Assembly (NCBI GenBank): GCA_951828235.1
Contig: OX639965.1
Coordinates: forward strand, 372,001-436,000
Source: an uncultured Gammaproteobacteria bacterium
Lineage (GTDB): Bacteria > Pseudomonadota > Gammaproteobacteria > Steroidobacterales > Foliamicaceae
Direction of reading: 5' to 3'
DNA length: 64,000 nucleotides
Below are positions 7,467 to 12,558 of the stretch, one piece after another. A program made the position numbers and the translations under genes. Numbering within the stretch: the first letter of the stretch is position 1; each line of letters begins with the position of its first letter. The notes below the pieces were generated by a model. It had not been told where the DNA came from. It ran no database searches and saw only the letters and a list, made by a program, of their open reading frames with translations.

Positions 7467-7569
7467 AACCCTCCGCCTGGCAATCCGGGATAGATGCACC
7501 GCTCCACAATCTTTGACAGAGACGGAACTACGTTCATTCGATTAGGGACGCTCTACCACTTGCGTGATA

Positions 7570-7862
7570 TCAGATTCCATCCAGGAAGTTCTTGAGGTGC
7601 TGAATCGCGCCCGGCTCGTGCAGCATCGGCGCATGATCCGGGCGACTCCGGCGGGCGAGATCTTTGGGCCGACGTCATTCAATACCACGCCGCGAAACAG
7701 CCGTAGCCGCATATTCGCCATAATCATCGACATCAGGCCGCCCGTGGAGGCGGCGACGGGCGCGATGCGGCGCAATCCGAGCTGCTCAATGAGAGTGAAC
7801 ATGTCCGCCACGCAGCGCGCCGGCGTGTGGTTTCAGGGTTGCTGTCCCGCTGGGATTCTCCG
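7570..7862 (-). pseudogene. Internally deleted alpha/beta hydrolase remnant
   Basis: Read from 7862 downward, one frame gives PHTPARCVADMFTLIEQLGL, then VAASTGGLMS (nucleophile-elbow region with the serine position altered) and LNDVGPKISPAGVARI, typical mid-protein alpha/beta hydrolase sequence. Directly after that, in a different frame, comes DHAPMLHEPGAIQHLKNFL with a TGA at 7570-7572. This matches the family's C-terminal catalytic-histidine segment. The N-terminal third and the middle are missing, and the two parts are out of frame. The intact hydrolase at 8970-10064 is not obviously its parent. Confidence 0.7.
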
Positions 7863-7870
7863 CAGCGGCG

Positions 7871-8053
7871 CTAGCTGTAGCGAAGGTCGCCGAATCGGGT
7901 CCTTAGCACCCTCTTGAGCACCTTGCCGTTAGCGTTGCGGACAATGCCCTTGGGCTCGCCAGTAGTGCCGGAGCTGTAGATGATGTTCATCAAGTCATCG
8001 TCCGCCAACCGCTGCAGCCGACCGCCGGTCTCAGGAATGGTGCAAGTCGGCGT
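7871..8053 (-). pseudogene. Acyl-CoA synthetase (AMP-binding) remnant with in-frame internal deletion
   Basis: The visible reading is DDLMNIIYSSGTTGEPKGIV joined directly to RNANGKVLKRVLRTRF and a TAG at 7871-7873. The first piece is the P-loop-like AMP-binding motif found near residue 190 of fatty-acid and aromatic acyl-CoA synthetases. The second is the C-terminal A10 motif with the catalytic lysine, near residue 500. About 300 intervening residues and the N-terminal domain are gone, so it cannot be functional. The frame continues upstream as antisense of the winged-helix gene, which is not meaningful coding. Confidence 0.75.
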
Positions 8054-8131
8054 TGCTTGGCTAGGGTTATGAGCAGCACGCCGCGTAGACAGTTCGAAGA
8101 ATCCCGCATGGGGTGGAATAGAATCGCCGTG

Positions 8132-9010
8132 ATGACCGAATTGCGCAGTGCCGCAAGCGGCTCCTTGATACGGTCGGGCCATCCGAGACCCGTCTTGGCG
8201 GCTTGGATGGGCCACATGGAGCGTTACGGCGAAGTCTGGTACGAAGACATTGGCCGCGACTACTTTAATCAGGAGTACTGGTACCTGCTCGTCAGCGTCA
8301 TCGTGCGCTACTGGCGCGGCGAGCTGATGAATGTGGGCGCCGCTTGCGCGTGCATGAAGACTGGCTCCATGCGAACCCGCGAGGCCCGCTTGCGCAGATT
8401 GCTGAATGCCCGCTGGATCGAAAAATCGAAAAGCGCGCCTGACAGGCGGCAAACCTGTGTGCTGCCGACCGCCGACATGCAGCGCATCGTTGGAGCGCAT
8501 TTGCGGCGAAGCCTGATCGAGGCGGCGCGTTTCGCGCGCGAGGCAGACATTCTTGATGCCGTCGAGCCGCTGATCAGCTCTCTGGAGACCAACGGAGGCG
8601 CGTTGAACGAGACTCATCTGCTTCCTTGGGCCGAGTTTCTGGTCGAATACACCGACGATTGGAACGCCACTTTCGACAACCGCTTTCACACCGAGGAATA
8701 CTGGCACCCGTTCGTGCACTGCCTGCTGGCGTTCTGGGAGGGCCGCCCGCTCACGATAGGCGAAGCCTGCCAAACCATGCGCACGGGCTCGAACCGCACG
8801 CGGGAGAGCCGCGTCGCCATTGCGATGATGCGAGACCTGCTGGTCAAGCGCAAGACCGAAACGGACCTGCGGACTCTGCTGGTGCTGCCGGCTCCCAGCC
8901 TGGAGCGCTGCCTGGTGGCCCATTTCGATCGCACGCTCGAACAGCTTGGGTGCCTGCTCCGCCATCTGCTCACCCGCGGGCGGGCGGATTGGCCCGCAGA
9001 AACTCCGTGA
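8132..9010 (+). CDS. Tandem winged-helix (MarR-like) protein made of two internal repeats
   Basis: About 292 residues from the ATG at 8132; upstream in-frame ATGs at 8057 and 8108 exist, and a GTG at 8129. Two units of about 105 residues (roughly 25-130 and 165-271) repeat the same order. Each has an aromatic-rich helix (FNQEYWYLL / FHTEEYWHPF), a helix-turn-helix (VGAACACMKTGSMRTREARL / IGEACQTMRTGSNRTRESRV), a wing ending in VLPT or VLPAP, and a terminal helix. This looks like two MarR-type winged helices in one chain, which could bind DNA as a monomer. Its 3' end overlaps the convergent hydrolase gene by 41 bases. It probably regulates that hydrolase and the TonB receptor, an inference from position only. 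Confidence 0.75.
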   Translation: MTELRSAASGSLIRSGHPRPVLAAWMGHMERYGEVWYEDIGRDYFNQEYWYLLVSVIVRYWRGELMNVGAACACMKTGSMRTREARLRRLLNARWIEKSKSAPDRRQTCVLPTADMQRIVGAHLRRSLIEAARFAREADILDAVEPLISSLETNGGALNETHLLPWAEFLVEYTDDWNATFDNRFHTEEYWHPFVHCLLAFWEGRPLTIGEACQTMRTGSNRTRESRVAIAMMRDLLVKRKTETDLRTLLVLPAPSLERCLVAHFDRTLEQLGCLLRHLLTRGRADWPAETP

Positions 9011-10064
9011 GCAGGCGAAGGAACTCCTCCGGCTTCTCGATGAACGGCGTGTGCCCGCAATCGGGGATAACCCGTTCCGCGACCTCGCCGCCGCGCCTCG
9101 CGTAGGCAGCCAGCACGCTGCGCGTCTGGCGCAGCATAGGCTGCGGCGGGCAGCGCTGCATGCCCGGCCAGCCGGGAATGTTGCCGAGCGCGCCCTGATT
9201 GGCCGCATCCAGCGCGCTCCGGTCGCTGATGATCGCGTCGTCGGCGCCGCGCAGCCACAGCACGGCCGGCTTGGGTTGGATCTCGGTAATCGCAGAGGCG
9301 TTGAAGTAGCGCCCCGACATCGCATTGACCACTCCGGTGTCGCCCGGGGCGAAACCCGGCCAGTTGCGCGTTGCCACGCTGTTACCCGGATACCACTCGT
9401 CACCGATCCGTGTACTCAGCACGCTGTCGAGCAGTTCTTCCATGGCGGCGGGCACGAACGGCGGCTTGAAGTAGAGCTGCTCCATCACCCGCCGCGGCGA
9501 AGTGACGCCGTCCAGTCCGCGGTCCTTGGCGGATAGTTTGGCCACGAAGTCCCCGTGAACGGCGCCCGCGCCCGCGCCCGCGCCATCCGCGAAGCAGAGG
9601 GTGCCGCGCTCATCGGCGGTGCCGCTGTAACCGAAGGGGGAGATGGGATCGACCAGGGCAACGCTATCGAGCGCCTCGGGCCTGCGCAGCAGCATCTTCA
9701 TCGCCACGCCACCGCCCATGCTGTGGCCGATCAGATGGAAGCGCTCGATCCCGAACTCATCGATCGCCGCAAGGACATCGCCAGCCATGTCATCCATGCC
9801 CGTGCGGGCGCGCACGGGCAGCGGCTCGGTGTTCCCGTAACCCCGCAAGTCGGGCGCCAGGCAACGGAACTCCCCCGAAAGCGCGGCCATAGTCGAATGC
9901 CAGAAGATCGACGAGGACAAGTTGCCGTGGACGAGAACAACCGCTGGGCCGGCGCTGCCGGCTGTGCGGACGGCGACTTTGATCAAGGGCGTCTGCACCA
10001 GGCGCACTGGCAGCGCCGCTCCCGTGGGAGTCGCCTGCTTTGGGGCTGCCTTGCTAGGTTTCAA
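8970..10064 (-). CDS. Alpha/beta-fold hydrolase
   Basis: A 364-residue serine hydrolase. The oxyanion region is LVHGNLSSS (about 44-52), the nucleophile elbow GHSMGG puts Ser115 in place, the acid is in LRGADDAI (Asp275/276) and the catalytic His338 is in DCGHTPF. A long cap (about 140-260) includes an Ala-Gly repeat (162-168). The N terminus has no signal peptide, so it is probably cytoplasmic; esters or related compounds are likely substrates but the specific one cannot be read. It lies 62 bases downstream of the TonB receptor on the same strand, suggesting co-transcription. Confidence 0.88.
   Translation of the reverse strand: MKPSKAAPKQATPTGAALPVRLVQTPLIKVAVRTAGSAGPAVVLVHGNLSSSIFWHSTMAALSGEFRCLAPDLRGYGNTEPLPVRARTGMDDMAGDVLAAIDEFGIERFHLIGHSMGGGVAMKMLLRRPEALDSVALVDPISPFGYSGTADERGTLCFADGAGAGAGAVHGDFVAKLSAKDRGLDGVTSPRRVMEQLYFKPPFVPAAMEELLDSVLSTRIGDEWYPGNSVATRNWPGFAPGDTGVVNAMSGRYFNASAITEIQPKPAVLWLRGADDAIISDRSALDAANQGALGNIPGWPGMQRCPPQPMLRQTRSVLAAYARRGGEVAERVIPDCGHTPFIEKPEEFLRLLTEFLRANPPARG
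9562..9584. repeat. Hexanucleotide repeat GCGCCC, about 3.8 copies
   Basis: Direct tandem copies of gcgccc lie inside the hydrolase gene and encode an alternating Ala-Gly stretch in the cap region. The six-base unit keeps the frame if copies are gained or lost. Confidence 0.75.
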
Positions 10065-10126: not shown

Positions 10127-12382
10127 TCAGTTGAAGCGATAGTTTGCCATCACGCGGTAGGTCCTCGGCGCGCCATGATAGGCGAGCCCCACGCCTGGGA
10201 AGGCGGTCAGGTCGAAACCGTGCGTGATGTAGGTCTCGTCCGTCAGGTTCTTCACGCCCAGGGACAGCGCCCAGCGCTCGTCGTCGTCCTCAAGCGAAAC
10301 CGCGACGTTGTGCAGCGCATGGCCGCTCTGTTCGAGGGAGGGATGGTTGTTGACCTCCACGAAATAGTCGGAGCGCCAAGTCATGTCCCAGGCGAAGCGC
10401 ACCTGTCCGAAGCCTACTGGCAACGCGTACTGAGCGGCCAGGCTGCCGGTCATGTCCGGCGCATGGATCGGGGTGCGCTCATCGGCGACATCGCGTTGCG
10501 ACGCGTCGATGAATTCCTTGTAGCTGGCATCCAGAAAGCCGAGGCTGGCGCTTACCAGAAGGTTGGGCATCGGACGGGCCACGGCTTCCAGTTCCAGGCC
10601 CAGCATCTCGGCTTTGCCCGCATTTGTGAACACCGTGGCGAATCCCCCGCCCGGCGTCGCCGAAAAGCTGCTCAACTGCAGGTCGGTATAGTCGTTGAAG
10701 AACGCGGCGGCGCTGAACCGCCAGGAACCATCGTCGGCGCCCACCTTCCAGCCTAGTTCGAAGGTATCCGCGAACTCCGGATCGTAGGGCGCGGACTGCG
10801 TGCCCACCGCGTCTGCAGAAGACGCGCCATTGTAGCCAATGCGCCCGTCGAATCCGCCGCTCTTGAAGCCGCGTGCCCAGTTGAGGTACAGCATTCCCGC
10901 CGAATTGGTCGTGTATGCGATGCCGAGCTTCGGCGTGAGCGCGTCGAATCTGTCCTCAAGATTCAGACGAAGCGCAAAGGGGTTCAGCGATCCCAACTCA
11001 GGCGTGCAGGCATCGATATCCAGCGGCTGCGGACTGAAGGCCTGGCAGGCCTTGCGCTTCAAGCGGCGGATCTCGTCGTTGTAGCGCAAACCCGCCGTCA
11101 GTTCGACCCTTTCGCCCGCAAACCAGGAGACTTCGCCGAACAGGGCGGTCGCTTCGATGCGCTGATCGTTCTCGCTGACGGTGTTGTAGGGTAGGAAGAA
11201 CCCGGCGCCGCCGGCGAAGTCGATGGGTTCGGAATTGCTGATGCCGTCGGGCGTGATGTCGTTCTCGGAGAACCAATACGCTCCTATCAACCCGGTCAGC
11301 GCGTCCCCCGCGGCGAAGGCGAGTTGCAGCTCCTGGCTGAACTGGTCCTGATCCTGATCCACCAATACGCCAAAAATAGGGTAGCCCGTCCCGTCCAGGT
11401 CGATATGGGTTTCGTGCTCTACCTCCCGGTAGGCAGTGATCGACTTCAGTTCCATGTTCGGCGTAACGGACCGCCGCACAACCAGGCTCACGCCCTGCAC
11501 CACCAAGCGCTCCACATCGTTGAAATCCGCTTCGATGGAAAAGGGGTCGGCGGCGGCCGGATGGGTGGCGGTTGCCGCCACGAGGGTGGGTCCGGCGGTC
11601 ACGCGCGCCGGGGTCACGGAACGCGCTGGTTCGTTCTCCGAGCGGTCCACGGCCAAGTTCACCGCCCATGCGGCGGAGGGCGAGTAGCTCAGTTGCGCCC
11701 GCCAGGCCAGACTGTCGCGGTCGCCGTCTATGCTTGCGGCGCCGGGATGAACGTTTTCCGTGTAGCCTTCGTGACTGCCCCAAGCCAGCGACATGCGGCC
11801 GAGCAAGTTGCCTTCGCCCAGCGGGCCGCTCAGCACCGCTCGCACTCGGCGCTCGCTGTAGTTGCCCAGCCCGGCTGCGACATTGACAAGCGGAGTGGCC
11901 GACGGGGGGGCCGAAACGTACTTGATGGCGCCGCCGATCGTGTTGCGTCCGTAGAGGGTGCCCTGGGGACCGCGCAGAACTTCGATGCGGTCCACATCGA
12001 TTACATCCAGAAATGCCCCTTGCGCGCGTCCCAAATACACATCGTCGAGGTACACGCCCACGCCGGGATCGGCAAACGATAGCGAGTCGCGCTGACCGAC
12101 ACCGCGCACGTACACGACGGCGTTGGCAGCGTCGCCCATATGGAAGGCCAGATTGGGGACGATGCCCGAAAGATCGCCGAGGTCGTCAACCTGCATCCGG
12201 CCGAGGTCTGACGCGGTCAAGGCGCTCACCGATAAGGGCGTGTCCAGCAGGCCCTCCTCGCGCTTGCGCGCCGTAACGACAATTTCTTCAATGGCCGCAG
12301 CCTGACCTGCGTCGTTCTGCGCGACAACTGGCAGCGGACACAGCAGCGACACCCCAATAACAGCGAAGACGTGGCGTTTCAT
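10127..12382 (-). CDS. TonB-dependent outer-membrane receptor
   Basis: A 751-residue receptor for energised uptake of an unknown ligand. The ATG at 12382 has ggggag upstream and gives a signal peptide (MKRHVFAVIGVSLLCPLPVVAQ). The TonB-box region EEIVVTARKREEG and the plug (LYGRNTIGGAIKYVS, about 130-145) follow, then a 22-strand-type barrel rich in aromatic alternation that ends YRVMANYRFN. This architecture is common among receptors for hydrophobic or aromatic compounds in sphingomonads and marine gammaproteobacteria, but no ligand can be assigned. The downstream alpha/beta hydrolase suggests an uptake-and-hydrolysis pair. Confidence 0.93.
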   Translation of the reverse strand: MKRHVFAVIGVSLLCPLPVVAQNDAGQAAAIEEIVVTARKREEGLLDTPLSVSALTASDLGRMQVDDLGDLSGIVPNLAFHMGDAANAVVYVRGVGQRDSLSFADPGVGVYLDDVYLGRAQGAFLDVIDVDRIEVLRGPQGTLYGRNTIGGAIKYVSAPPSATPLVNVAAGLGNYSERRVRAVLSGPLGEGNLLGRMSLAWGSHEGYTENVHPGAASIDGDRDSLAWRAQLSYSPSAAWAVNLAVDRSENEPARSVTPARVTAGPTLVAATATHPAAADPFSIEADFNDVERLVVQGVSLVVRRSVTPNMELKSITAYREVEHETHIDLDGTGYPIFGVLVDQDQDQFSQELQLAFAAGDALTGLIGAYWFSENDITPDGISNSEPIDFAGGAGFFLPYNTVSENDQRIEATALFGEVSWFAGERVELTAGLRYNDEIRRLKRKACQAFSPQPLDIDACTPELGSLNPFALRLNLEDRFDALTPKLGIAYTTNSAGMLYLNWARGFKSGGFDGRIGYNGASSADAVGTQSAPYDPEFADTFELGWKVGADDGSWRFSAAAFFNDYTDLQLSSFSATPGGGFATVFTNAGKAEMLGLELEAVARPMPNLLVSASLGFLDASYKEFIDASQRDVADERTPIHAPDMTGSLAAQYALPVGFGQVRFAWDMTWRSDYFVEVNNHPSLEQSGHALHNVAVSLEDDDERWALSLGVKNLTDETYITHGFDLTAFPGVGLAYHGAPRTYRVMANYRFN

Positions 12383-12558
12383 AGGCTTGCTCCCCAGTGC
12401 ATCTCCAATGCTCGGCGAGGAAACAAGCCGAATCAATAACAAATTTTGTCGCAATTATCGCGGTCGTTTTGGCGCCGCGGCGGAGCGGCCACGAACACCC
12501 CGTGGCGGCAATAGACGAGAAGGGCGACCCAAAGGACGCCCTCCATCAAGGGAATACG
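12383..12558. other. Intergenic region between the TonB receptor and pnp
   Basis: 176 bases. The part next to the receptor (about 12425-12465) is AT-richer than its surroundings and probably holds the receptor promoter, but no convincing -35/-10 pair is seen. An imperfect hairpin at 12521-12542 (AGGGCG/CGCCCT with an inner CC/GG pair) follows the pnp stop and may stabilise or end the pnp transcript; it lacks a T-run. Confidence 0.4.

Follow-up and report, generated by a model that had tools for sequence, protein, structure and literature searches.

A predicted tandem winged-helix regulator beside a TonB receptor/hydrolase pair, and a candidate operator before the receptor gene

Two winged-helix units in one chain

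The window, by which we mean the whole 64,000-nucleotide stretch analyzed here, comes from an uncultured gammaproteobacterium and carries a gene for a putative tandem winged-helix regulator, an alpha/beta hydrolase gene that meets it tail to tail with an overlap of 41 bp (8970-9010), and a TonB-dependent receptor gene (Table 1). An initial annotation of this DNA had described such a receptor/hydrolase pair beside the regulator, and the expected domains were indeed found: Plug (PF07715, 63.5 bits) and beta-barrel (PF00593, 142.8 bits) in the receptor, both over cut-off, and Abhydrolase_1 in its partner. The interval given there as lying upstream of the receptor (12383-12558) was also correct, given the likely start codon. 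On the other side of the regulator, an early core motif of the AMP-binding remnant joins an apparent C-terminal motif, as if the gene had been internally deleted. The frame beside it (7542-7811, minus strand) looks by eye like a piece of an alpha/beta hydrolase, and had no Pfam match at 0.01.

Table 1. Positions of the features discussed, in window coordinates
Feature	Position	Strand	Remarks
AMP-binding (acyl-CoA ligase type) gene remnant	7871..8116	-	5' of regulator; Pfam E 2.8e-8 over 32 residues
Tandem winged-helix regulator gene	8132..9010	+	open frame, 292 aa; tandem relative in locus L001
Unit 1 (residues 18-137)	8183..8542	+	model elements; faster-diverging copy (tree end branches)
Unit 2 (residues 160-282)	8609..8977	+	model elements; nearer single-unit family
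Recognition-helix candidates			unit 1 residues 80-92; unit 2 residues 221-233
Alpha/beta hydrolase gene (Abhydrolase_1)	8970..10064	-	convergent with regulator; 51% identical to L001 hydrolase
TonB-dependent receptor gene, 751 aa	10127..12382	-	Plug + beta-barrel; likely ATG at 12382
Operator candidate 5' of receptor	12428..12471	-	matrix rank 1; core 12449-12463, CCGCG-ATAAT-TGCGA on minus strand

When the 292-residue protein was aligned with itself, its halves were identical at 34 of 107 positions (32%), without gaps and with a pairwise E of 1e-21. An AlphaFold model, built on an alignment of only two sequences (the window protein and its tandem relative at locus L001), had a mean pLDDT of 80.6 and a pTM of 0.79, and the order H-H-H-H-E-E-H appears in it twice, at residues 18-137 and 160-282, with a short helix joining the two. 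The L001 protein, which was modeled separately, had the same order of elements (pLDDT 80.3, pTM 0.80), such that a helix-helix-HTH-wing-helix unit of the MarR/SarA fold is present in both units of both predicted models. The claim that two winged-helix units are repeated in this frame was thus borne out by self-alignment and by models of two proteins, and both helix-turn-helix motifs that had been named were located, MKTGSMRTREARL from residue 75 in unit 1 and MRTGSNRTRESRV from residue 216 in unit 2. Judged by sequence and model, the protein is a pair of MarR/SarA-like winged helices in one chain. Assembly or frame errors were rejected as the source of the fusion, as L001, an independent genome, has the tandem gene too.

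A Foldseek search of the PDB returned a single match at E<=0.001 for each tandem model, SarS of Staphylococcus aureus (1p4x), with an E of 8.4e-5 over 282 columns for the window model and of 1.1e-4 over 277 columns for that of L001. The matches ranked below SarS were mostly single MarR-family chains, and for both models MarR and SarA chains made up the match lists. Superposition of either whole chain on SarS was poor (TM 0.33-0.37, rmsd 8.9-10.5 A), and the relative placement of the heads is therefore uncertain and may differ from that in SarS. With VIA-align, MarR chains reached Z scores of up to 10.4, some of them mixing both units, and SarS was absent among the matches listed.

The units match the structures of MarR-family regulators (MarR, MepR, HosA, PecS), which have the same helix-helix-HTH-wing-helix order, and in the window a near-palindromic operator candidate lies 5' of the receptor gene. 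The MarR family differs in that its members are dimers of single units, and the whole window protein scores below the cut-off of every Pfam and NCBIfam model. HTH_27 gave 18.4 bits for the whole protein and 19.8 bits for unit 1 against a gathering cut-off of 22.2. Among 12 aligned units, the best E was 0.00096 for HTH_27, 0.0025 for Staph_reg_Sar_Rot and 0.023 for MarR_2, the last matching 2 of the 12, so that Pfam places the protein in no MarR-type family. The staphylococcal Sar-family model TIGR01889 reached a best E of 0.0014 and had 3 of the 12 units at E<=0.1; it found nothing in the whole protein and nothing in window unit 1, which by sequence leaves the protein outside the Sar family. 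A profile search of PDB sequences gave, at E 0.05-1, no chains other than MarR, SarA and SarS ones and two dynamin-like chains.

The closest architectural counterparts are SarS (SarH1), SarU and SarY, which like the window protein carry two homologous winged-helix halves, or tandem domains, in one chain; excerpts of the literature describe all three as two-domain proteins (PMC3855681) and attribute to SarS two homologous halves and no dimerization (PMC10715151). The earlier contention that fused pairs lie outside MarR practice was consequently too strong. Identity to SarS is only 10-12%, and SarS is a regulator of many genes in Firmicutes, whereas the window gene is Proteobacterial and tied to one TonB receptor; the fusion shared by the window and L001 presumably arose independently of that in SarS. 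Among the papers listed by our literature search, none described this family or a fused MarR pair from Proteobacteria.

Relatives, unit divergence and the receptor cassette

The gene is rare, and among the genomes searched only the window and L001 showed its tandem form. A query with the tandem protein yielded matches in 2 of 147 relatives, of which one was the genome of the window itself, and L001 was the sole relative among 29 pattern-matched stretches of an 84,980-genome collection, in a scan that detects close relatives only. None of the eight other genomes of the window's genus matched, and the window's own genome held no further copies beyond the two units. A phage origin or a defence role was rejected: relatives were encoded in 0 of 27 pattern-matched viral stretches, and there was no PHROGs or PADLOC match at E<=1.

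Profile searches, in which a strong match was set at E<=1e-25 and the window's genome was excluded, identified single-unit relatives in ten genomes (G074, G314, G615, G722, G838, G844, G865, G1276, G1393, G1417). The genome draws overlap: there were two matches among 396 genomes of the order (G074, G314), none among 369 of the class, two among 398 of the phylum (G615, G722), four in a 147-genome set (G722, G838, G844, G865) with the same four in a 29-genome set, four in a 289-genome set (G615, G1276, G1393, G1417) and one in a 200-genome set (G314). Weak matches with partial cover (E 8e-7 to 5e-4; G165, G234, G626, G644, G686, G411, G759) were left out, and the loci L022 (G626) and L023 (G686) were excluded from the analysis. 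The single-unit proteins are homologous in sequence to each tandem unit, with 31-49% identity. The initial annotation had regarded homologues with only one repeat as evidence against a tandem architecture, and here the outcome was mixed, since all ten relatives are single-unit but the independent L001 has both units.

In a tree of 14 units, unit 1 of the window paired with unit 1 of L001 (100/99) and unit 2 with unit 2 (100/99), which makes the duplication older than the split between the two proteins. Unit 2 grouped with the single-unit protein of G314 (97/94); the position of unit 1 is unsure because of its long branches. The end branches of unit 1 measured 1.94 and 1.99 and those of unit 2 measured 0.57 and 0.64, from which unit 1 appears to be evolving about three times faster. 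We defined 52 family-conserved positions as those kept in at least 7 of 8 single-unit alignment rows; 30 are retained by unit 1 and 37 by unit 2 of the window protein, and 28 and 35, respectively, in L001. Such figures are what one would expect if unit 1 no longer bound DNA and served only as a built-in dimerization partner or ligand domain, leaving unit 2 alone to read the operator. We think this improbable, given that two elements with little or no variation across all 12 aligned units are intact in unit 1, namely GS-x-[RK]-TRE, where the recognition helix begins, and the D-x-R pair of the wing; with these motifs kept in both units, both look able to touch DNA.

L001 has, after its tandem gene, a hydrolase gene and a receptor gene convergent with it, as in the window. 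Its outer flanks differ, with what we take to be a catalase gene on one side and a Bax-inhibitor-like gene on the other. In nine of the ten relatives, a TonB receptor gene directly follows the single-unit gene on the same strand, whereas the tandem gene lies beyond the hydrolase and on the opposite strand. The exception is G1417 (Niveispirillum), which from its coordinates we take to be plasmid locus L017 and which has neither a receptor nor the operator element nearby. The window receptor is 59.8% identical to that of L001, 39-43% identical to those of eight single-unit loci (the ninth, in G844, is cut off) and 27% identical to an unrelated receptor in L020, and by this comparison the receptors of the single-unit loci are orthologous to that of the window. 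An alpha/beta hydrolase gene follows the receptor gene in six of the nine loci; G844 and G865 reach the contig end, and G1393 is unclear. These hydrolases are of two kinds, one comprising those of the window, L001 and G074 (Abhydrolase_1, 38-51% identical) and the other, a separate group, those of G314 (Abhydrolase_3), G615, G722, G838 and G1276. The loci thus retain some hydrolase even as its family varies, which suggests that the receptor's cargo must be hydrolyzed.

We also compared the pnp region of six siblings from the window's genus, five of which have dksA, another gene and pnp in that order (the names dksA and pnp being our assumption), and the sixth (G004) an AAA ATPase gene, a 129-residue frame and pnp. 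Regulator, hydrolase and receptor were absent from all six stretches (tblastn, E 1e-3), and a search of the genus for the hydrolase found, outside the window's own genome, distant paralogues only (best 38% over 106 residues). By these sequence comparisons the regulator/hydrolase/receptor cassette is accessory, and the pnp spot seems to collect accessory genes. What looks by eye like the start of a Cas9-like protein lies beside the ATPase gene of G004, near pnp (L052, 5002-5517, minus strand). In G074, a gene for a 458-residue TPR-repeat protein (L018, 8765-10138, minus strand) is directly 5' of the regulator, receptor and hydrolase genes. In G314, two genes directly 5' of the single-unit regulator (L019, 5944-8524, minus strand) presumably encode an acyl-CoA ligase and a ketoacyl-ACP-synthase-III-like protein; the former gene is intact, a hint that the cassette may formerly have included a ligase.

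A candidate operator before the receptor gene

The nine gaps between single-unit regulator and receptor genes have in common the near-palindrome CCGCA-N5-TGCGG, whose half-site centres are 10 bp apart. The motif search used a 20 bp palindromic model, with 40 starts for the data and 25 for each null, and gave a log-likelihood of 88.8, whereas 20 doublet-preserving shuffles averaged 33.6 and peaked at 37.9. From the nine sites, aligned by eye on TGCGG, we made a 44-column matrix that did not include the window or L001. In leave-one-out scans, each of the nine sites ranked first in its own 9-17 kb locus with a score of 21.7-45.4, and the rest of these loci scored no higher than 8.3, including the further receptor genes in L020 and L021.

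With the same matrix, the window's candidate site was the best of 127,914 window positions (score 20.1); second came this very site read on the opposite strand, and no other location scored above 8.1. This predicted site is 45 bp before the receptor ATG, the distance to the likely receptor start being 58-83 bp in most single-unit loci, and it falls inside the interval for which a DNA-binding assay had been proposed. None of 2000 column-permuted matrices reached 20.1 (best in the upstream interval, 12.5), so AT-richness alone does not explain the match. With a 23-column core matrix, the site dropped to rank 3 with a score of 10.5, tied with two others (10.6, 10.5), which indicates that the flanks contribute much. 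With up to two mismatches allowed, the 18-base core had a single match in the whole 3.11 Mb genome; with up to three, one further match (with three mismatches) appeared, and a reversed control pattern gave three. The genome thus showed no sign of a wider regulon. Neither in the window nor in L001 did the matrix scan find an element 5' of the regulator's own gene, and there was no sigma-70 promoter match around the window site.

In the nine-site consensus, conservation resumes some 11 bp 3' of the right half-site with a third stretch, TTt-CGgTA (about 12428-12444 in the window), which could be a further half-site or the receptor promoter. As the conserved block extends some 12 bp past the core in this half-site-like manner, the tandem protein might bind as a dimer of two-unit chains, placing four heads on, for example, the core plus TTt-CGgTA. 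This is unlikely in our view, because the downstream block is also present in the single-unit loci and SarS, whose fold is the closest, reportedly does not dimerize (PMC10715151).

In L001, the gap upstream of the receptor gene scored 1.3 (rank 4 in its locus), a value matched by 34 of 2000 permuted matrices, and had no convincing site and no inverted repeat; either operator and regulator have diverged together, or the proposed link does not hold in L001. When the two halves of each site were matched, left against complemented right, at eight positions, the nine single-unit sites agreed at 5, 6, 6, 8, 6, 6, 7, 5 and 4, and that of the window at 3, which makes it the least symmetric of the ten (chance alone gives 2). 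The suggestion that a fused pair could read an asymmetric operator thus fits the lopsided window site and the fast unit 1, which are consistent with it and not proof, as the fit comes from one site and L001 lacks a convincing one.

Half-sites one turn apart are typical of MarR-like dimers. Although L001 keeps regulator and receptor without a convincing site, we consider it quite unlikely that the element is a receptor promoter or operator read by another factor, with the tandem protein regulating something else or nothing, as the element is near-palindromic with this spacing and lies between regulator and receptor in all nine such loci and nowhere else in them.

Proposed mechanism and significance

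We favour as probable that the tandem gene encodes a dedicated local regulator of the TonB receptor/hydrolase pair, predicted to bind as an intramolecular pseudo-dimer. The ancestor would have been a single-unit MarR/SarA-like protein, presumably a homodimer, that bound CCGCA-N5-TGCGG just 5' of the receptor gene, with the half-sites of this near-palindrome one helical turn apart. On the branch leading to the window and L001, this unit would have been duplicated and fused, so that one chain would supply both DNA-reading heads and form the pseudo-dimer within itself, the mode of binding assumed for SarS. The window protein would most likely bind at the candidate site and block the receptor promoter until its ligand, either the receptor's cargo or a product of the hydrolase, is present, and the hydrolase gene, downstream on the receptor strand, is perhaps repressed together with that of the receptor. 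The computations themselves establish the tandem architecture, the predicted fold, the linkage to an orthologous receptor, and a conserved DNA element that recurs in the window where it was expected. We infer DNA binding, ligand and pseudo-dimer geometry, as well as binding as a monomer, for which the models and the SarS precedent speak. Repression rather than activation is a guess based on the family. A comparable arrangement is found in Sphingobium sp. SYK-6, where, according to an excerpt of the report, the MarR-type DdvR of a lignin-dimer pathway represses the TonB receptor gene ddvT in a catabolic cluster until the substrate relieves repression (PMC6874591); we liken DdvR to the window protein by description only.

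More tentatively, and with the balance somewhat against it, the locus may record a natural transition from a symmetric to an asymmetric switch, in which a homodimer on a near-palindrome became a fused chain, the heads specialized, and the operator grew asymmetric alongside them, the L001 operator having moved beyond what the single-unit matrix can recognize. If so, the window would hold a monomeric, directional MarR-like switch.

The passage from a dimeric repressor to a single-chain asymmetric reader is usually argued from a few staphylococcal proteins. Here both states can be compared, in ten single-unit relatives, nine of them with the near-palindrome before an orthologous receptor, and in two tandem proteins beside the same type of receptor. 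The predicted 15-bp core and both heads could be swapped between the systems, making the fusion step directly testable and the family well suited to testing how a symmetric switch turns asymmetric. The analysis also defines a small family of regulators not described before, together with the receptor/hydrolase uptake cassette probably under its control.
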